Source: a virus
DNA length: 25,835 bases
Direction: 5' to 3' (one strand)
Virus record (IMG/VR): IMGVR_UViG_3300025652_000475
Coordinates: 1-25,835 of that record
Positions within the stretch are counted from its first letter, which is position 1; every line of letters starts with the position of its first letter. This document shows, one piece after another, positions 2,431-23,602 of this stretch. The notes below the pieces were generated by a model that had not been told where the DNA came from, searched no databases, and saw only the letters and a list, made by a program, of their open reading frames with translations. The translations under genes were made by a program, and so were the position numbers.

Positions 2431-3246
2431 ATGTCTTATACAGGACTGTTGCGTAAAGCAAGAAAAGAAATTAGAGGTTTCTCTGAGGGTGGGTTAACCG
2501 CAGCGGAGGAGGGTACTAGAAGACTCTCGTCTAAGGGGTTGACAGGTAGCTCTTTTCAAGAAGCTCTGGGTGATAATGATGCCTCTGAGCTTCTACCTAA
2601 AAGAATGTTATCTGGTAGCTCTCTCGTAAAAAGAAGAGCTAGCGATAGGTTTGACTCTAGTGAGTCTGAGGAAGACTTCTTAACAAGGTCGTATAGAAAT
2701 GTTGTAAATCAAAATGAACGATTGATAGAAGAGGGTAGCTCTACCCAAGCTGCAACTGATGAGTCTGGTGAACCTTTAGATATTCTAAATCAGGGTGATG
2801 ATGTAGCCGATTCCTCTGGTCAATCTGCTGAAGACTTTATTGCTAGCTTTGAGAATGTAACGGATCAAAAAACTTTTAAAGCTTACTGGGATGTAGATCA
2901 CTGGGCAATTGGTTTTGGAAGTAAGGCTAGCGGAGAGAATGAAACTATAACCCTAGCACAAGCTAGAGATAGGCTAAGTAAAGACACTTCTAAATTTAGA
3001 GATATTGTGACATCTACAGCAGAGAGATACGGGTATGATTGGGACTCCGATCAAATCACAGCACTCACTAGTTTTACCTACAACTTAGGCGCAGGAAATC
3101 TAGAGAAGCTGCTAGAAGGTGGTAGTCGTGGTGACGAAGAGATTTCTAATATGATACTTGAGTATAACAAAGCTGATGGTAAAGTACTGCCGGGACTTGT
3201 GAAAAGACGTAAAGCTGAAGCTGCTTTATTCTCTAGCGTGAATTAA
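2431..3246 (+). CDS. Virion-associated lysozyme (GH24, T4/P22 type) with long N-terminal extension
   Basis: The protein has 271 residues. Residues 1-135 are Ser/Glu/Arg-rich and unrecognised. From about residue 135 it matches the phage lysozyme fold, which cleaves the glycan backbone of peptidoglycan. The catalytic Glu is in SFENV (E141), a following Asp is D154, the helix motif ALTSFTYNLGAGNL matches the family pattern, and PGLVKRRKAEAALF matches the typical C-terminal PGLxxRRxAE signature. The usual catalytic Thr before IGxG is Ala here (A159, WAIGFG). An AGGA ribosome binding site precedes the ATG. The location inside the structural block and the N-terminal extension suggest a wall-degrading enzyme carried in the particle for DNA entry rather than a free endolysin; a lysis role is not excluded. 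Confidence 0.85.
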   Translation: MSYTGLLRKARKEIRGFSEGGLTAAEEGTRRLSSKGLTGSSFQEALGDNDASELLPKRMLSGSSLVKRRASDRFDSSESEEDFLTRSYRNVVNQNERLIEEGSSTQAATDESGEPLDILNQGDDVADSSGQSAEDFIASFENVTDQKTFKAYWDVDHWAIGFGSKASGENETITLAQARDRLSKDTSKFRDIVTSTAERYGYDWDSDQITALTSFTYNLGAGNLEKLLEGGSRGDEEISNMILEYNKADGKVLPGLVKRRKAEAALFSSVN

Positions 3247-3775: not shown

Positions 3776-4824
3776 TGGGTATGTGGCAAGGCATTAGTCA
3801 AGGGTTAGACGCTGTTGAGCAGAGAAAGCTTAATCAAGCAGAGCTTGATATTAGAAAAAAATCTGAAGAAAGACTTGAGAAACAATTTAACCAAGAGATG
3901 ACTGACAGAAGATTAAAACAAATTATAGATCTTGGGGGATTTGTAAGTAGTTCTAGATCAGGTAAAGCTTCTAAGGATGCTAGAGCTGATGCAGAAGCAG
4001 TAGTTACTTTTAAAAATCGTATGCAAGCTGCACTTAAAAATGTTAGTATCGAAGATCAACAAAGACTTCAAGAATATACCAATCAACTAACCACATCACC
4101 AGAAAAAACAGCTGAGGTATTAGGAGCCTGGAATCAGCTAAATGAATCTGGTAGTAATATACAAATTACAGAAATACCAGAAATATTTCAAATTATTTCG
4201 TTTACTGCGGGTGATACAGAACAAACTAGACTTACTTTAGAAGAGTTGTACAACATAGATTTAACCGATGACGAAGTGTATAAAAATCTTCTACAAGCTG
4301 CAGCATCTTCGAACAGATCTTCGGTTGTGGTAGACTACAACCCGGCTAGTACAAGTGTACGTAAGCCAGAGGATTTACGTGCTCAGTATCAGTACATTTT
4401 ACCTATAGTAATTGGAGCTGCTGAAGATGCTCAAAGTCAAACCGACAGGCCTGATGCACAAGAAATTACCGCCGCACTTAACGATGTTAAAAGTAGTAAT
4501 GAGGCAGTACGTGCTAGAGCACAGTCATACTTGTTTAGGAAGTTCTTTAGCTTAGAACGTGCACAGGAACTTGAGTCGAGTGGTAACAATTACTTTCGTG
4601 GCTTAACAGATAATCCACTCGTTGCTGCCAGGTTAGTTAGCAAAGAACCTGTAGTTAATAGTAGTCCTGCAGTTGGGGCTATTCCCGGTGCGACAGTTTT
4701 AACTCAAGAAATGATTGACAGTAATCCGTCCTTAAAGAATATTGGCGCTGAACCCGGAGATCAATTTTTACAGACACAAGAAGGTGGAAAGTTATATGGC
4801 CCGGACGGAAACCCAAAACAATAG
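3775..4824 (+). CDS. Probable virion protein of unknown function
   Basis: The protein has 349 residues. The start ATG shares its A with the stop of the upstream gene (TAATG). An alternative start two codons downstream (third codon, ATG) is also possible. Residues 15-55 are highly charged and helical (QRKLNQAELDIRKKSEERL), likely a coiled coil. The remainder is mixed, without a motif I recognise. The C-terminal 29 bases overlap the start of the large internal virion gene. Its place between structural genes suggests a component of the ejection or internal core complex; this is inference from position alone. Confidence 0.75.
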   Translation: MGMWQGISQGLDAVEQRKLNQAELDIRKKSEERLEKQFNQEMTDRRLKQIIDLGGFVSSSRSGKASKDARADAEAVVTFKNRMQAALKNVSIEDQQRLQEYTNQLTTSPEKTAEVLGAWNQLNESGSNIQITEIPEIFQIISFTAGDTEQTRLTLEELYNIDLTDDEVYKNLLQAAASSNRSSVVVDYNPASTSVRKPEDLRAQYQYILPIVIGAAEDAQSQTDRPDAQEITAALNDVKSSNEAVRARAQSYLFRKFFSLERAQELESSGNNYFRGLTDNPLVAARLVSKEPVVNSSPAVGAIPGATVLTQEMIDSNPSLKNIGAEPGDQFLQTQEGGKLYGPDGNPKQ

Positions 4825-7800
4825 TGACCCCTTTGCTGGTGTAACCTTAGCTACTGAACCTTATAATGTTTTTAATGACGTTACTTTAGCTACAGACCCT
4901 TACGATTTTTCCAGTGAAGCTCCTGTATCAAGTCCTTCATTACCCGAGGCTGGTTCTTACACTCAAGACGACCTAGCTCTCAATGACGGTTTGTATGCCC
5001 CTATTGAGAAATTTATGATCCTTCGTTATGGAGATCAAGCTGTAGAAGGCGAGACCCGTGAAGAAGTTGTGAATAAATTTTTAAACAATAGACGAGGTGT
5101 TGCAGGTGGTAACTCTGTCATAGGCCTATCAGAGCTAGATTTCTTAAGAGAAATTTCTGGTGACGACGAGGCTATGGTTAAAACTGGGCAGGCCTATCAA
5201 ATCTACGAGGATATGGCCGGAATCTTCAGCGAAGAAGCTACTTGGTCTGAAACAATGGAAGGCCTAAAAGACTACACAATGGGTGCAATACTAGATCCAA
5301 TTAACTTGGTTGGTTTTGGTATAGGTAAAATAGCTGCGGGTGGTGGACTTAGGTTAGCAACGCAAGCTGCTAAACAGCAAGCACTAAAGGCGATGGCAAA
5401 AAAGGCTGCAGAAAAAGGAGCTTCAAAAGCCTCTATTAAAAAAGCTGGAGAGGTTGCTATGTCTAATGCAGTTTCTCAGATAGGTAAGCAAGAGCTAGCA
5501 AGACAGGGTACTGCAGCTGCTACAAGAGCTGCAATGAAGGGTCAGGGATTAAGGAAACTAGCTCAAACATCTGCTATGAAAGAGTTAGCTGCTGTTACAA
5601 CATTTGAGTCTATTGTATCTGCTGGATTAGAATACGGATATCAGAACAGCCTAGTTAAAACTGATGTTCAAGAGGATATCAATAAATTTGCTATAGGTTT
5701 GGCGTTTCTTGGGGGTACTATTATAGGTGGTGTACAAGCTACCGCCATACTTCGTCGGGGTGAATTTGATATTGCTATGCCCAGCCTATCAGTTGAAATG
5801 CCTGAGCCAAAAGATGTGAATATTCTAGGTAAACTTGCGGAAAGTATATCTGAGTACGCAGACAACTTAGTTCCTTCAAATATATCATGGAAAGAGTCTG
5901 TAGAAAAAGGTGTTAAGTTTGAGGATTTAGACAGTAATTTCTTTGTTGATATGCTTATAGGTCTTGGTGATAAAGATTCTGGTGAAGTTTATCTTAAAGG
6001 TATAGCACAGATTGCTTTTGAAAATGGACTTAACTATCAAAAAAGATTTGAAGAGGATAAGTACTCTAATTGGATTAAGGATCTTATCTTGGCCTCAGAT
6101 CCACAAGATGTAAAAAGTTTTGCAACTGCTTGGCAGAAGGCTTCCGGTGTAAAATTAAAAGGATTTAATAAAGTTTCAGTGAAAGACTTTGCAAATACTT
6201 TTGCTATGAAGATGAATCAATCAGCAAGAGTTATGAATGCAGCATCTCAAGGGGCTAAATTAAATGGGATGAGTAAGTCTGATTATCAGGTTCAGCAACT
6301 TATAGACGATGCTTTAGATTTAGGGTTACTTAAAAAAGAAGAACCCAAAAGTAAAATTTCAGGTATCACTAATGAAGTCACAACTGGTATTCAGAACAGG
6401 GTCATTAGAACACTTGTAACGCACCCATCTACAAGCTACTTAAACTTTGTTGGCTGGGCTGCTCAAACTTCTTTAGGTTCTGTCGCAGATCTATCAGGTG
6501 CTATACTACACTCAGGTGCAGGTACACTTAAAAAAGCTTTTGGTATGTTGGAAGATGGGGTTGACCCACTAACTGTTTCGAGGTCAGTCCTTGCGGCTAA
6601 TGCCAATCGTTTAAAACTTTTATTAAACCCGGACATGACATATGAGGCTTACAGATCTATACTTCAATTACGTGGGGATAAACTAGATAAACTATCTGAT
6701 GTTATTTCAGGTGGTGTTGTAGACACATCTAAAGTACTATCTGACAGCTCCCTGTCACCCACAACGCAACTGCTTGGGACAAAAGCAGATGAAGTTATTG
6801 ATCTTATGCAGGTACTAACCCTTGTCAAGGGTCAAGATAGCTTTACTAAATCGCAAGAATTTGTTTACCAACTTGATAAGGGATTGAGATCTACTTTAAA
6901 TAAGTCTTGGGATGAAGTCTTTACAGACCCCAATGCATCTAAAATTTTAAATACAAAAGAGTACCGTGCAATTGAAGAACAGGCTCTGCGTAAAACGCTT
7001 GAAAGAATTTCATCCAAGTCGTATAAAGGCACAGGTGCTGTTGGTCAAATTGCAGGAGTTTTTGAGGATGCACGTAACATACCGGGCCTAGGTTTGCTAG
7101 TACCTTTTGGTAGATTCTTTAACAACACTGTGGACCTTACAATTCAAAATACACCTATGGTACCACAGGTTGCTAAGTTGTTTGGTGGATTTTATGGTGA
7201 TAAAAATTACTCTGAATTGTGGGCTAGGTCTGCTATATCTTCGGCTATTATATATTCTCTTGCCGAAACAGAGTACGAAAATAGAAAGAAGGGTCTAGCA
7301 ATAGACCAGATTATTGATCCTAGAACTGGAGAAATAAGTAGTGTTCAATACGATTACCCTATTTCTAACTATAAATATATAGGTCGCATTGCGTCTTACT
7401 GGTTTAATGATGAAACGGTACCCGCAGAATTAATAACAAGGGCTAACAATGATATAGGGCTTGGATCTTTTACCCGTAACTTAGAGACAACATTTGAAGA
7501 TTTGATGGCTATTACAGCTAAGGCAGTGTCTGGTGAAGATGATGCTTTGATCAGAGCTATGGCAGATACAGGTGGTGCAATTGGTTCTCAAGTTATATCC
7601 GGTATCACTCGACCACTAGAACCTATTAACTTTGCTATAGGTTTTGCCTCTGGCTCCGAGGGTAGGCTCGTTGATAGAAAAATAGGTAACGATTTCTTAA
7701 ATAAATCTCTTCGTTATCTAGATCAAATTACTCCCCTCTTTACTGGAGATGAATCTGTCCAAGCTGTTGGGGCTGCTACTGGTCCTATGTATACACAGTC

Positions 7801-8287
7801 CAGTAAGATGGTTGGCTCAAGACCTGTAAGGCTAACTTCAACAGAACGTATAATGAATATTCTTAGCATACCAACATTCAAATTAAATGCTCCTACATCT
7901 GTAACAGATAAAGCACCGGAAGCTGCTAATAAATATAATCGTTATATGTTTAATACTATTGAAGATGAAGCAGAAAAACTTTTGAAGAATGGTTTTTCTA
8001 AGATGAGGCCTGAGAAACAGAAACTTATCTGGTCTCAAGTTGTATCTAGACAAAAGAAAATAGCTAAGACACTGATGTTCTTAGATAACTCTGGCGTTAC
8101 TGATACCGCAGACCTGACCTTTGAGTTGTCAGATAAGTACTCATGGTCTAAAATTGATGAGGCACTGGCAGGTATTTCAGAGAACTTAGGTGAGGAACTA
8201 AAATTTGAGAACCTCACCCGTGGTCAACTGTATGTATTAAAGTCTTGGTTAGAAACTAGGGACACAATGATTATGTTACAAGACTAA
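4796..8287 (+). CDS. Large internal virion / DNA ejection protein
   Basis: Starting from the ATG at 4796 (GGTGG upstream, MARTETQNNSDPF), the protein has 1163 residues; the frame is open further upstream with a TTG at 4742, but no convincing site supports it. It overlaps the preceding gene by 29 bases. It contains several amphipathic or hydrophobic helices, for example IGLAFLGGTIIGGVQATAIL and SAISSAIIYSLAE, an Ala/Lys-rich helical region near residues 185-240, and the segment IPGLGLLVPFGRFFNNTVDL. Length, helices and the terminal place in the structural block fit the giant internal proteins that podoviruses eject into the cell envelope to conduct DNA (T7 gp16-like in role; homology not demonstrated). 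No transglycosylase motif was found. The gene meets the convergent early operon head-on at its stop codon. Confidence 0.75.
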   Translation: MARTETQNNSDPFAGVTLATEPYNVFNDVTLATDPYDFSSEAPVSSPSLPEAGSYTQDDLALNDGLYAPIEKFMILRYGDQAVEGETREEVVNKFLNNRRGVAGGNSVIGLSELDFLREISGDDEAMVKTGQAYQIYEDMAGIFSEEATWSETMEGLKDYTMGAILDPINLVGFGIGKIAAGGGLRLATQAAKQQALKAMAKKAAEKGASKASIKKAGEVAMSNAVSQIGKQELARQGTAAATRAAMKGQGLRKLAQTSAMKELAAVTTFESIVSAGLEYGYQNSLVKTDVQEDINKFAIGLAFLGGTIIGGVQATAILRRGEFDIAMPSLSVEMPEPKDVNILGKLAESISEYADNLVPSNISWKESVEKGVKFEDLDSNFFVDMLIGLGDKDSGEVYLKGIAQIAFENGLNYQKRFEEDKYSNWIKDLILASDPQDVKSFATAWQKASGVKLKGFNKVSVKDFANTFAMKMNQSARVMNAASQGAKLNGMSKSDYQVQQLIDDALDLGLLKKEEPKSKISGITNEVTTGIQNRVIRTLVTHPSTSYLNFVGWAAQTSLGSVADLSGAILHSGAGTLKKAFGMLEDGVDPLTVSRSVLAANANRLKLLLNPDMTYEAYRSILQLRGDKLDKLSDVISGGVVDTSKVLSDSSLSPTTQLLGTKADEVIDLMQVLTLVKGQDSFTKSQEFVYQLDKGLRSTLNKSWDEVFTDPNASKILNTKEYRAIEEQALRKTLERISSKSYKGTGAVGQIAGVFEDARNIPGLGLLVPFGRFFNNTVDLTIQNTPMVPQVAKLFGGFYGDKNYSELWARSAISSAIIYSLAETEYENRKKGLAIDQIIDPRTGEISSVQYDYPISNYKYIGRIASYWFNDETVPAELITRANNDIGLGSFTRNLETTFEDLMAITAKAVSGEDDALIRAMADTGGAIGSQVISGITRPLEPINFAIGFASGSEGRLVDRKIGNDFLNKSLRYLDQITPLFTGDESVQAVGAATGPMYTQSSKMVGSRPVRLTSTERIMNILSIPTFKLNAPTSVTDKAPEAANKYNRYMFNTIEDEAEKLLKNGFSKMRPEKQKLIWSQVVSRQKKIAKTLMFLDNSGVTDTADLTFELSDKYSWSKIDEALAGISENLGEELKFENLTRGQLYVLKSWLETRDTMIMLQD

Positions 8288-8517
8288 TCCTCCTCTAACA
8301 TCCTGTCTGCCCACTCGTAGGCTTCACGCCTAATTTCTTCCAATCTACTGAACCCCTGACGATTAGAAAGTAATCCCGCAAGTGCTTGACCTGCGAGATA
8401 TGTTCTGGCTGTCAGGGGTTTATCTTTTGGAACCTTGGATTGTCTGAACTCCCTAGCCTCTTGCAGTAACTTGTTTTCTTTCTTGGGCCTACCACGTGGC
8501 CTACCAGTTGTGTTCAT
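8284..8517 (-). CDS. Small AT-hook-like DNA-binding protein
   Basis: The protein has 77 residues. Its N-terminus GRPRGRPKKE is a textbook AT-hook (basic residues around a GRP core), which in known proteins inserts into the minor groove of AT-rich DNA. The remainder (YLAGQALAGLLSNRQGF, then an acidic helix ending WADRMLEED) is unrecognised. The start overlaps the phoH stop as ATGA, so it is the last gene of the long - strand operon. Its TAG stop overlaps by four bases the TAA stop of the large virion gene on the other strand. A role in DNA packaging, nucleoid binding or transcription is possible; I cannot choose between them. Confidence 0.7.
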   Translation of the reverse strand: MNTTGRPRGRPKKENKLLQEAREFRQSKVPKDKPLTARTYLAGQALAGLLSNRQGFSRLEEIRREAYEWADRMLEED

Positions 8518-9227
8518 ATTCCCTCCTTGAGAAAAACTTTAACCCACTGTGCGCAGATGTCACTTCTTATGATGTCGTTAATACCAAACTCAATAACTGG
8601 TACAGGTAGTATGTGCTTTTTTGCTAGGTGAATAACTTTGGATAGGCCATCCCCAGAAGGAAGATCACTCTGTTGTACATCTCCATTCAAAACAATTTTA
8701 CTTCCCTCGCCCACTCTGGTGAGTAGCATCTTCAACTCATGTGTTGTTATGTTCTGAGTTTCATCTACAATAATAAAAGAATTATCAAAACTACGCCCAC
8801 GCATGAGGGCAAGAGGTGCCATCTCGATGTTACCATTTTTAATTCCAGTCTCTACTACACCCTTACCAAGGTGCTTGATTAGTACATCGAGTACAGGCAA
8901 TGCCCAAGGGTAAGTCTTTTCTTCCAGAGTTCCTGGAAGATACCCGATGTCTTTACCCACAGTTACGTGAGGTCTAGTGATGACAATCTTGTCTATTTCT
9001 TTTGTCGTATACAGATCAGCTGCGTAAGTAGCAGTAACATAAGTCTTACCAGTACCAGCTGGGCCTAGGATAAAGACTTGATTGCTGCTAGTTAAAGCAT
9101 TTAATAACTCCCTCTGTGTCTCTGTCTTTGGTATTATACCTGATGTTTCTTTCTTTGCTGCGCCCTTGTAGTTAGTTTTTCGACGGGATCGTACTTGCTT
9201 CTTAGGTGGCTCAAGACTATCAATCAT
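8514..9227 (-). CDS. phoH: PhoH-like P-loop ATPase
   Basis: The protein has 237 residues. A basic N-terminal 25 residues (VRSRRKTNYKGAAKK) precedes a P-loop GPAGTGKT at 55-62. A typical PhoH segment ITRPHVTVGKDIGYLPG follows at 83-99. Walker B is FIIVDETQN at 151-159, and NGDVQQSDLPSG begins at 181. PhoH proteins are predicted RNA-associated ATPases of the helicase superfamily 1 type, widespread in marine phages; their biochemical role in phage infection is unsettled. The gene overlaps both neighbours by ATGA junctions, so it belongs to the replication/nucleotide operon. Family assignment is very secure; function is not. Confidence 0.93.
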   Translation of the reverse strand: MIDSLEPPKKQVRSRRKTNYKGAAKKETSGIIPKTETQRELLNALTSSNQVFILGPAGTGKTYVTATYAADLYTTKEIDKIVITRPHVTVGKDIGYLPGTLEEKTYPWALPVLDVLIKHLGKGVVETGIKNGNIEMAPLALMRGRSFDNSFIIVDETQNITTHELKMLLTRVGEGSKIVLNGDVQQSDLPSGDGLSKVIHLAKKHILPVPVIEFGINDIIRSDICAQWVKVFLKEGI

Positions 9228-20790: not shown

Positions 20791-20867
20791 TGGCCCACCC
20801 TGCAGGACTCGAACCTGCAACCTACTGCTTAGAAGGCAGTTGCTCTATCCAGTTGAGCTAAGGGTGG
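20791..20867 (-). tRNA. tRNA-Arg (anticodon UCU), CCA encoded
   Basis: On the - strand a full cloverleaf can be drawn. The acceptor CCACCCT/AGGGTGG has 7 pairs, followed by U8-A9 and a D-stem GCTC/GAGC. The anticodon stem is ACTGC/GCAGT with loop CTTCTAA, giving anticodon TCT, and the T-stem GCAGG/CCTGC closes TTCGAGT. The discriminator is G and CCA is encoded (20793-20791). It decodes AGA and AGG. All stems are perfect, so the molecule is probably functional. A sigma70-like promoter lies upstream and a leader peptide plus integrase directly downstream, so it is cotranscribed with them. Confidence 0.96.
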
Positions 20868-20876
20868 TACTAAAGT

Positions 20877-20890
20877 AATACTTAAGTATT
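20877..20890. promoter_or_regulatory. Operator candidate 1, perfect palindrome
   Basis: AATACTTAAGTATT is a perfect 14-bp palindrome lying between the promoter and the tRNA. The 16-bp block AGTAATACTTAAGTAT that contains it (20874-20889) recurs exactly at 20927-20942. Two copies 53 bp apart suggest a dimeric regulator with DNA looping or cooperative binding. Confidence 0.6.
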
Positions 20891-20930
20891 TATTTCTTTA
20901 AGATATATAGTAAAGTATATCTCTCTAGTA

Positions 20931-20942
20931 ATACTTAAGTAT
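20931..20942. promoter_or_regulatory. Operator candidate 2, adjoining the -10 box
   Basis: ATACTTAAGTAT is a perfect 12-bp palindrome that begins immediately downstream of the -10 element at 20943-20948, so a bound protein would cover the transcription start. It is the second copy of the palindrome at 20877-20890. Between the two copies lies a further 7-bp inverted repeat (AGATATA/TATATCT). Confidence 0.6.
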
Positions 20943-20973
20943 ATTATATAAGGGAGCTTGAAGATTCTGTCAA
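20943..20973 (-). promoter_or_regulatory. Sigma70-type promoter for tRNA-integrase unit
   Basis: On the - strand a perfect -35 box TTGACA (20973-20968) is followed by TATATA (20950-20945) at 17 bases or TATAAT (20948-20943) at 19 bases. It lies just downstream of the peptidase stop codon and points at the tRNA-Arg, leader peptide and integrase. It may also feed the long replication operon, since no terminator was seen between the integrase and the SSB gene. Confidence 0.82.
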
Positions 20974-20986
20974 GTGTGACATATTG

Positions 20987-21940
20987 TCAGTATGCATACT
21001 GGTACTTATCGTAGTTAACATAGTCCTGGAAATACCTACTGTCGTCAATCTGAGCTTCCTCAACCAGAGCATAGTAGTTGATACCCATATCATCTAGAAA
21101 CTCAGCTATCTTCTGCGGGTGATCTTGGATGAGATCCTTGATAGCAGCTATGTTACTTTCGTCAGGTGTACTACGATACCCATAGTTACTCATGTCCCAC
21201 CTATCTTCGACTACCGATGGATCACGTTGGAATACTAACTTATCCCAGTCAGCACACACAAGTGCTGTTGCAAGATACTCTGCATATTTTATATCCTGTG
21301 TCTCATTTACGCCATGCTGTCCATAATAACCGACACTGATGTTAGTACACTCTTGCACAACATGGATGTATTCGTTACTGTCAGTGTATGAACCACCATT
21401 GTCACCAATAAGTTGAGGCATATCAAGAGCTTCAGCAAAGGACTTAGCAAATGCATCTGATGCAGTGCGTAAGCCCATCTGATGTGTGATTACAGATGTA
21501 TCACCGAACCTGTCGAAGGATATAACTGCGTCAATACTACTCAGCCATAAGGGGTTGTCATTTACCAAGGCTTTGCTACCCTTGCAACCAACCTCTTCTG
21601 CCGCATGGATCACATACACACCGTCAATACCAGCCTCAATCATATTAAGGATCAACCAAATGCCAGTAGTACAGTCAGCACCAAGGCAGCTAGATGTAGC
21701 TGGGTCTGCAATAGATATAACATCATTGATGACCAGTAACTTCTGCATACCCTCAGTCTTATGTACTGTGTCGTGGTGTGCAGTGAAGCACAGGTTTGGT
21801 TTCTTACCTACACTCATTATATAGTTGCCGTGTCTGTCAGGTAAACCAAACATAGGTTCAAGGAACCTCTGACAGAACTCCCTCTGCGTCTCACTACCTT
21901 CTGGTCGTTTGTAACGCAGCATTTCAATTAAGCTATACAT
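20987..21940 (-). CDS. Zinc metallopeptidase of the M20/M28 type (clan MH)
   Basis: The protein has 317 residues. All ligand positions of the clan MH peptidases can be read in order: HHD in FTAHHDTVH (H55, D57), bridging D89 in LGADCTTG, the catalytic Glu pair AAEEVGCKG (E115, E116), D143 in SFDRFG, and a late His in YGQHGVNE (H209). Family members remove amino acids or cleave small peptides or amide conjugates using two zinc ions. Residues 230-317 form an acidic, Tyr-rich C-terminal extension (NYDKYQYAY end). There is no signal peptide, so it acts in the cytoplasm. The start is joined as TAATG to the 538-residue Cys-rich protein upstream. A phage peptidase of this class is unusual; the substrate is unknown. 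Confidence 0.88.
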   Translation of the reverse strand: MYSLIEMLRYKRPEGSETQREFCQRFLEPMFGLPDRHGNYIMSVGKKPNLCFTAHHDTVHKTEGMQKLLVINDVISIADPATSSCLGADCTTGIWLILNMIEAGIDGVYVIHAAEEVGCKGSKALVNDNPLWLSSIDAVISFDRFGDTSVITHQMGLRTASDAFAKSFAEALDMPQLIGDNGGSYTDSNEYIHVVQECTNISVGYYGQHGVNETQDIKYAEYLATALVCADWDKLVFQRDPSVVEDRWDMSNYGYRSTPDESNIAAIKDLIQDHPQKIAEFLDDMGINYYALVEEAQIDDSRYFQDYVNYDKYQYAY

Positions 21941-23556
21941 TATTCTTCTTCCTCTTCTTTATACCATTTTGATTCAGAGTTTATCTTCCATGAACCAGCT
22001 TCATTAATCTCGTATCGTGATACCTCTTCACCATCCACTGTCTCGCACAGCACTTCATTGTTGTACAACTCACCATCCCAATCGGATCTAAAGTAATCGT
22101 CCATACTCTCAGGCGAGATCCACTCATCTTCCCACTCACAGTACCCAACATCGTCAATGTGCCAGTACTTGTAGTCAGTACATCTGACGAACATATCACC
22201 CTCTTCTACAGCCCAAGATGATACAGTCAGTTCTTCTTTATCACCCCGTCTGTTGAGAGCAAAGGCAGTGCGGGAATCATTGACATGAAAGGACTCTTGT
22301 GCATACTCGCAGAAGAAATGGTTCTCACTGTAGCAATCATCGCAGCAATCACCCTCGTAATACTCTGAGTAGTTTGCATAGTCCTCCTGAATCCTGTCAC
22401 CACAACAGGTACACTGAAGTCCACCAGATGATATAATACCTTGGTAGTTGCTTGCATCTATCTCACCACCATGAGTCTGCACTAGATACTCCTCATCACA
22501 GGTAAGATCGAGAGTACGTGGCTCTACATCTAGGTAAGGGCCAATGAAAGATGTTGGTGGATCTTCATGCACATCCTCAGGCACAGCAGTCAATCTGGCA
22601 CCACACCAATCAGGGTTGCGAATCTCTGCACCCCTACCTATCAGATGATGCTCTATCATGTCAAGTGCTTGCTCCGATACACCATAGATAGGCCCAGCTT
22701 GAGGTACACCGCTGTCATGTGCGACATATACGACACACCTAGCTGCAATACGCTGCTCACTGTCAAACACTGTGATGATCTCGAAGTCACCACTGCCGTA
22801 CACTTCTGCGGGGTGGCACTTGAGGTGCTCAAAGTCGTACCGCATACAGCTAGACGCAGAAGACTTGCGAGTCCATGTGGTGTCGATGTTCTCCATAGGT
22901 GCTTGATCACCACTATACGCTAGCTTGAAAGCCTCTCGATCAGTTGATACGGATAGGGTGAGGTCACGCTTGGCAAACTTCTGTAAGAAACTATCGACAA
23001 ACATGATGACCTGCTTGTGCTCAACCTCAGGGAACATGGCAGTGAAGGCACGACCGGGCTTCATAGCTGTGTGCCGATCCTCAATACGCATACCCAGGTC
23101 TCTGTAGATACTGATCTTGCCGGGCGATAGCTTGGATCGGATAGGTGAGAAGGCACGTAACCTGCGGTCAAAGTCAAAGACCTTGGGGTCAGGCATACCG
23201 AATACACTGTGGTTCACAATGTAGTTTACAAGCCAACTAAACAGCTCTGCATCAGATGTACCACCAACAGGTATCTCTGACCATGAACCCCACCCTTTGA
23301 TAACAGGGTCAAGCTCAGACTCATCGACAGTCAACATCTTCTTGACGATAAATCCATCCTGATCTGGACGATGCAGCCAGTACCCCTTGCCGTTGTCGAG
23401 TATTACAAATCCACCGACTAGGTTTCTGAAATTGTCAGCTGTAACAACTGGTGCTGACGGATGTTCATGCTCTACATCGTAGGTTTTGTATGGGGTTACA
23501 TACTCTGCAAGATCCCAATCAGGTGACACATTTACTGCCACTAAAGAATATCTCAT
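21940..23556 (-). CDS. Large acidic protein with C-terminal Cys-rich (zinc-ribbon-like) region, unknown function
   Basis: The protein has 538 residues. A GGAGT site lies eight bases before ATG, just after a terminator. The N-terminal two thirds are unrecognised, with a notable block SSASSCMRYDFEHLKCHPAEVYGSG (read as SSASSCMRY at 232-240 and HLKCHPAEVY at 244-253). The C-terminal third has CTCC (382-385) and CCDDC (404-408), a probable zinc site. Two similar segments follow, FFCEYAQESFHVND (414-427) and YCEWEDEWISPES (472-484), suggesting an internal duplication. The tail is EEEEE. It is coupled by TAATG to the zinc peptidase. I cannot assign a function; it could be the peptidase's partner or substrate adaptor. 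Confidence 0.8.
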   Translation of the reverse strand: MRYSLVAVNVSPDWDLAEYVTPYKTYDVEHEHPSAPVVTADNFRNLVGGFVILDNGKGYWLHRPDQDGFIVKKMLTVDESELDPVIKGWGSWSEIPVGGTSDAELFSWLVNYIVNHSVFGMPDPKVFDFDRRLRAFSPIRSKLSPGKISIYRDLGMRIEDRHTAMKPGRAFTAMFPEVEHKQVIMFVDSFLQKFAKRDLTLSVSTDREAFKLAYSGDQAPMENIDTTWTRKSSASSCMRYDFEHLKCHPAEVYGSGDFEIITVFDSEQRIAARCVVYVAHDSGVPQAGPIYGVSEQALDMIEHHLIGRGAEIRNPDWCGARLTAVPEDVHEDPPTSFIGPYLDVEPRTLDLTCDEEYLVQTHGGEIDASNYQGIISSGGLQCTCCGDRIQEDYANYSEYYEGDCCDDCYSENHFFCEYAQESFHVNDSRTAFALNRRGDKEELTVSSWAVEEGDMFVRCTDYKYWHIDDVGYCEWEDEWISPESMDDYFRSDWDGELYNNEVLCETVDGEEVSRYEINEAGSWKINSESKWYKEEEEE

Positions 23557-23568
23557 TTCACTTACTCC

Positions 23569-23602
23569 AAAAAAGAATGCCCCACACAGTTAAGCATGGG
23601 GC
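23569..23602 (-). terminator. Intrinsic terminator after the 132-residue gene
   Basis: On the - strand GCCCCA/TGGGGC forms a 6-bp stem with a 12-base loop, followed by ATTC and six T. It starts eight bases after the stop of the DNA-binding-like gene and ends just before the ribosome binding site of the 538-residue gene. Confidence 0.8.

Follow-up and report, generated by a model that had tools for sequence, protein, structure and literature searches.

A virus genome fragment carries, in its early region, a gene for a large protein directly followed by a peptidase gene, raising the question of whether the two proteins act together and, if so, on what. The window analyzed here is a 25.8-kb IMG/VR fragment of 25,835 nucleotides, in which the genes are arranged in the order small early genes, an HTH-like gene, the large protein, the peptidase, tRNA-Arg(tct), and integrase, followed by ThyX, primase/helicase, DNA polymerase, exonuclease, and RNR. 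On the opposite strand, a 1181-aa ORF (4742–8287, plus) lacks a PHROG match and is probably a structural gene of unrepresented type. The first-pass annotation described the pair as a Cys-rich acidic protein and a peptidase joined by TAATG, and both ORFs were found exactly where it had placed them: the large partner (538 aa), hereafter the SCM-family protein, at 21940–23556 and the peptidase (317 aa) at 20987–21940, both on the minus strand. The stop/start overlap TAATG unites the two genes at 21938–21942 (minus), and in relatives, too, the gene ends usually overlap. With pI values of 4.5 and 4.6, the two products are acidic, and the large protein contains 15 cysteines. Purifying selection acts on both genes. 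With L007–L009 as the reference, dN/dS is about 0.19–0.22 for the large gene, at 77–81% identity to the relatives compared, and 0.06–0.08 for the peptidase gene, at about 89–94% identity; the two ORFs are thus real, constrained genes. The purine-rich Shine–Dalgarno sequence of the peptidase gene, AAGAGGAAGAAGAATAATG, sits inside the 3′ end of the large ORF, and AGGAG-type sequences occupy this place at other loci. The Glu tail ascribed to the large protein is therefore present but is largely translated AAGAGGAAGAAGAATAATG, and a functional acidic tail was downgraded because the Shine–Dalgarno sequence explains its composition.

The smaller protein had been called a zinc peptidase, which profile searches bear out. 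The Pfam M28 model PF04389 matches the window peptidase at 29.3 bits (cutoff 21.3) and recognizes 18 of 18 family members (E up to 0.01), while phrog_4191 'peptidase' matches it at 1.6e-77. A profile search of the PDB retrieved peptidase T (3gb0) at 2e-6 in two stretches, as well as tripeptidase (3rza); the alignment with 3gb0 extends over two parts of the protein, the HxDT..LGADD..EE half and the GY...HT.NE end. His55, Asp57, Asp89, Glu115, Glu116, Asp143, and His209 are invariant among the 18 members, which include Pasto and KMI6. The ligands defining clan MH are H, D (bridging), E, D, and H, together with a general-base E, and this two-zinc set is complete in the window peptidase, with every expected metal ligand invariant. 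On this sequence evidence, the protein is firmly assigned as a predicted clan MH (M28/M20) zinc exopeptidase, with peptidase T as its nearest profile. Peptidase T (M20B) proper was ruled out, since the PepT-like model TIGR01883 scores only 16.8 bits against an equivalog cutoff of 274, and the spacing of only 66 residues between Asp143 and His209 does not accommodate the M20 lid (dimerization) domain.

Among the fetched IMG/VR loci whose upstream DNA is long enough, 72 distinct peptidases are each immediately preceded by a homolog of the large protein. The exceptions on the peptidase side are KMI6, in which the partner is present with a sub-threshold score, and L047, in which the locus is broken: both pair genes are split into shorter frames at 4371–6967, by either decay or sequencing error. 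Viewed from the large homologs with downstream DNA, the peptidase comes next in 84 of 86, the exceptions being L047 and, in L046, an additional copy that consists of the core only. Because the loci share ancestry, the 72 peptidases do not represent independent events. The same gene order occurs in the independent phage groups of Pasto, KMI6, KP34, PP16, FE11, BDU-MI-1, and Ep4, and in 219 phage records a single place matches at least 80% of the KP34 pair. The possibility that the two genes are never neighbors elsewhere is thereby refuted. In the lineages viewed, the pair is located upstream of the primase/helicase and polymerase genes. The conserved adjacency and this position agree with the earlier description of a self-contained enzyme–partner unit in the early region. 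Since the genes are adjacent across marine, rhizobial, Vibrio, Pectobacterium, and Klebsiella phages, the large protein and the peptidase very likely act together. Each gene also occurs on its own, the large partner in Lullwater and the peptidase in Thermus phage G20c. In the 121-kb Bradyrhizobium phage BDU-MI-1 (L208, 1727–6339), a gene annotated as rIIA directly follows the pair.

The large partner had been noted as belonging to no recognizable family, and in profile searches it falls under none of the Pfam, PHROG, and NCBIfam models; sequence searches of the PDB likewise returned nothing significant. A scan of genome contigs for bacterial homologs, based on the alignment of the large protein, yielded 40 pattern hits, with no confirmed relative among them. 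The protein represents a divergent, rapidly changing phage family marked by SCM, GD, (A/G)R, YG, and PY-D, of which GD, (A/G)R(A/C), YG, and PY-D are landmarks common to most distant members. SCM occurs once in 11 of 12 distant members and is replaced by SCL in the twelfth, with approximately 0.26 occurrences expected in total; only 3 of 253 background ORFs contain it. The HMM of the marine family detects the proteins of Pasto (4e-29), BDU-MI-1 (4e-15), and Lullwater (gp08, 7e-10), and weakly those of PP16 (E 0.0035) and Ep4 (0.035). tblastn searches with the Pasto and BDU-MI-1 proteins reach Klebsiella, Escherichia, and Shigella phages, down to 1e-5, and in BFVD the AlphaFold2 structure predicted for the window partner matches proteins of KpV48, Buco, Nobby, and DE17 (E 1e-13 to 1e-15). 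By this chain of matches, the large partners across these phage groups are homologous. Some BFVD neighbors bear the name amidoligase, which was rejected, as no Pfam match supports it.

According to the 48-member alignment and the AlphaFold2 model, the protein (21940–23556, minus) comprises an N-terminal part, a GNAT-like core with an SCMRY motif, and a C-terminal Cys4 zinc ribbon with a β-hairpin tail. In the core, Lys231, Ser236, Cys237, Arg239, Pro249, Tyr253, Ser255, Gly256, Phe258, Arg273, Tyr291, Gly292, and Asp343 are invariant, and His248 and Asp257 are nearly so. The invariant polar residues Lys231, Ser236, Cys237, Arg239, Arg273, and Tyr291, together with His248 and Asp257, suggest a putative working site. 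The cysteines at positions 382, 385, 405, 408, and 416 are invariant in all 48 members. They lie in the zinc-ribbon-like pattern C382-x2-C385 ... C405-x2-C408 ... C416 (22306–22413, minus) and likely form a putative zinc ribbon; a few of the relatives weakly resemble LIM and Zn_ribbon models. This region includes the CTCC (from residue 382) and CCDDC (404–408) motifs recognized in the initial reading of the sequence. That reading also listed two similar segments in the protein, of which YCEWEDEWISPES occurs once; its supposed counterpart, FCEYAQESFHVND, is a far poorer match.

The AlphaFold2 model of the large protein has a pLDDT of 87, and the core modeled alone has a pLDDT of 90.5 and a pTM of 0.80. 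The GNAT-like core corresponds to residues 196–314 of the model and is contained in the coding region of residues 125–376 (22429–23184, minus), as delimited by the alignment and structure matches. By VIA, 50 of the 50 matches listed are GNATs in one register in both structure searches; the best among the matches listed has a Z of 7.9 with an rmsd of 2.6 over 90 residues, and the other search gave a Z of 7.9 with an rmsd of 2.8 over 92. As the best Z is below 8 and the Foldseek E is 0.03, the assignment is suggestive only, and the core is named GNAT-like. The hallmark of GNAT acetyltransferases is the (Q/R)xxGx(G/A) acyl-CoA pyrophosphate loop after β4. This loop is absent after YG in all 48 members, making ordinary acetyltransfer unlikely, and the label of GNAT acetyltransferase was withheld on this ground. 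Fem, L/F-transferase, and L-PGS are GNAT-fold enzymes that transfer from aminoacyl-tRNA without the CoA loop; L-PGS (4v36) is among the Foldseek matches and is taken as a lead only. The large protein is probably an enzyme. A more specific idea, rather doubtful in our view, is that the SCM domain may be a new phage-specific GNAT branch that lost acyl-CoA binding, gained a Cys/His/Arg active site, and joins with a dedicated peptidase in the two-step modification of proteins or peptides during host takeover. L046 encodes, at 8043–8999 (plus) and about 3.5 kb downstream of its complete pair, a stand-alone 318-aa paralog of the SCM/GNAT-like core that lacks the zinc tail; tblastn of this paralog against phages gave no match.

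The flanking signals were proposed to delimit the pair. Downstream, the sequence read as the int promoter, TTGACA-N19-TATAAT, is present at 20973–20943, 3′ of the peptidase gene and just ahead of the tRNA-Arg and integrase genes; its 19-nt spacer falls outside the range of the promoter scan. Beside it, at 20874–20942, the 16-nt sequence AGTAATACTTAAGTAT is repeated without change; both copies include the palindrome ATACTTAAGTAT and look like a putative operator pair governing the integrase. Upstream, an intrinsic terminator or attenuator (23579–23602, minus), between the preceding gene and the pair, is a genuine hairpin with a 9 bp stem and a T run (fold z −3.3). However, it lies approximately 22 nt ahead of the large-gene start codon and is kept in the closest clade only, and therefore does not define the unit; by its position, it resembles a possible attenuator within an operon rather than a unit border. 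The tRNA-Arg(tct) gene at 20791–20867 (minus) is situated between the peptidase and integrase genes, and ten of the scanned relatives likewise have a tRNA-Arg(tct) after the pair. It is also present in CRP-9, which has no pair in the region searched; the tRNA is hence characteristic of the lineage and may be a remnant related to integration. In L034, tRNA-Trp(cca) is found upstream of the pair at 2877–2950 (plus) instead of the downstream tRNA-Arg. A role of tRNA-Arg as the aminoacyl donor was rejected, since CRP-9 and CRP-13, the latter also a carrier of tRNA-Arg (PMC8528129), possess the tRNA but not the pair in the early region searched, and in several relatives with the pair no tRNA was found in the fetched DNA. 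The suggested tie of the pair to lysogeny does not hold either. Lytic phages, those of the KP34 type among them, have the pair but no integrase, and several relatives of the window keep it while the integrase is absent from their fetched DNA. The retention of the pair by these phages indicates that it is not a lysogeny gene set.

We tentatively favor, at somewhat less than even confidence, a reading in which the two genes form an early operon in tailed phages and their products both act as enzymes on one peptide or protein substrate, likely in host takeover. Both would be made early in infection. At a pocket lined by Cys, His, and Arg residues, the SCM-family protein may attach a small acyl or aminoacyl group by transfer or ligation, or may process the substrate in some other way, and its zinc tail would hold the substrate or a partner. 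The peptidase would remove or trim a terminal residue of the same substrate. The target would most likely be a protein or peptide of the host that matters for takeover. Of the steps in this proposal, the chemistry and the target are the least secure.

The pair could instead be a counter-defence unit that modifies and cleaves a host antiphage effector or signal, such as a peptide or protein trigger, and in this way neutralizes it. Its early position beside fast-changing small early genes and the ArdA-like antirestriction gene directly before it in Pasto are in keeping with such a role. So is the finding that the near relatives CRP-9 and CRP-13 have neither gene in the early region searched, from which the pair is dispensable. 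Anti-defence genes are often patchy within a genus, whereas the pair is fixed in the 219 Drulisvirus-type records. In addition, neither protein matched a family at E 0.01 in PADLOC-DB, which covers defence rather than anti-defence families, and the literature searched contained no anti-defence role for the pair; we regard counter-defence as unlikely. Peptide salvage, which we also consider improbable, would make the peptidase a tripeptidase-like housekeeping enzyme that supplies virion synthesis with amino acids from degraded host protein, with the partner feeding or regulating it. Peptidase T and tripeptidase are indeed its closest solved relatives, TIGR01883 matches weakly, and Thermus phages have the peptidase without the partner, but a near-obligate partner with an invariant, pocket-like set of residues is left unexplained. 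It is decidedly unlikely that the large protein is merely a substrate or scaffold matured by the peptidase, with a Cys-rich tail that just binds zinc and no second enzyme. Although the strict gene order with overlapping ends, the acidic tail adjoining the peptidase start, and a GNAT-like core without the CoA loop would fit this arrangement, the invariant polar residues of the core are a sign of catalysis or of specific binding, the Shine–Dalgarno sequence accounts for the tail, and a core-only paralog exists in L046. Finally, a virion or late-assembly gene set is highly improbable: one record labels the large protein 'putative structural protein', and 29 proteins, 12 of them hypothetical, were detected in particles of Drulisvirus fHe-Kpn01 (PMC7291057), but the pair lies in the early region before the primase in the lineages examined and has no similarity to structural PHROG families. 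In the toxicity screen of fHe-Kpn01, only proteins of 69, 182, and 146 aa were confirmed as toxic (PMC7291057), and the screen accordingly says nothing positive about the large protein.

Among known systems, the early GNAT protein Rac of phiKMV-like phages, which leads to cleavage of the host RNAP alpha subunit (PMC7552054), offers a partial parallel to the favored two-enzyme reading, namely a GNAT-type fold, only tentatively predicted in the case of the SCM-family protein, in a phage takeover protein with proteolysis downstream. Rac, however, keeps its acetyl-CoA pocket and uses host proteases (PMC7552054), while the SCM-family protein is large, lacks the CoA loop, and has its own peptidase neighbor. 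Peptidase T/PepT-like (M20B) enzymes and Pfam M28 share with the window peptidase the HxD, D, EE, D, and H ligands and an HTxNE-like end motif; the window peptidase differs in having no space for the M20 lid and in scoring far below the PepT equivalog cutoff. In Caulobacter phage Lullwater, gp08 occupies the equivalent early position and is recognized by HMM as a homolog of the large protein, but a profile search of the Lullwater genome found no peptidase. Rhizobium phage Pasto gp004–gp005 resembles the window pair in its order, early region, HTH gene, and downstream tyrosine integrase. The Pasto zinc peptidase, gp005, is 43% identical to that of the window, and its partner is only 23% identical despite the HMM match; Pasto differs in being a T7-like phage with its own RNA polymerase. 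The peptidase has also been noted in phiM1-like phages (PMC6115819).

Drulisvirus KP34 (phrog_6980 and phrog_4191) has the gene order and overlap seen in the window. Its KP34p10 'hypothetical protein' and KP34p11 'putative peptidase' are listed as core genes of 'Kp34likevirus' (PMC4411677), and the pair is hence undescribed only in part: the genes were already on record, listed without a function. No paper in the literature searched treats the large protein and the peptidase as a unit or tests either. KP34p11 is homologous to the window peptidase over 98% of its length, at about 34% identity. KP34p10 shares the SCM, AR, YG, and PY-D landmarks and the predicted fold with the window partner, but it is 655 aa long and its core is only about 25% alike. 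KP34 further differs in host and phage lineage, with no integrase or tRNA adjacent to the pair. More than 200 sequenced Klebsiella phages, some of them proposed for therapy, carry the pair under the bare annotations 'hypothetical protein' and 'putative peptidase'. The conserved neighborhood and invariant residues make this orphan pair a directly testable two-enzyme question, for which the well-studied KP34-type phages can serve as models. The window pair, in which the gene of an SCM-family protein immediately precedes that of a phrog_4191 peptidase within the early region, is a marine member of the KP34p10–KP34p11 kind.
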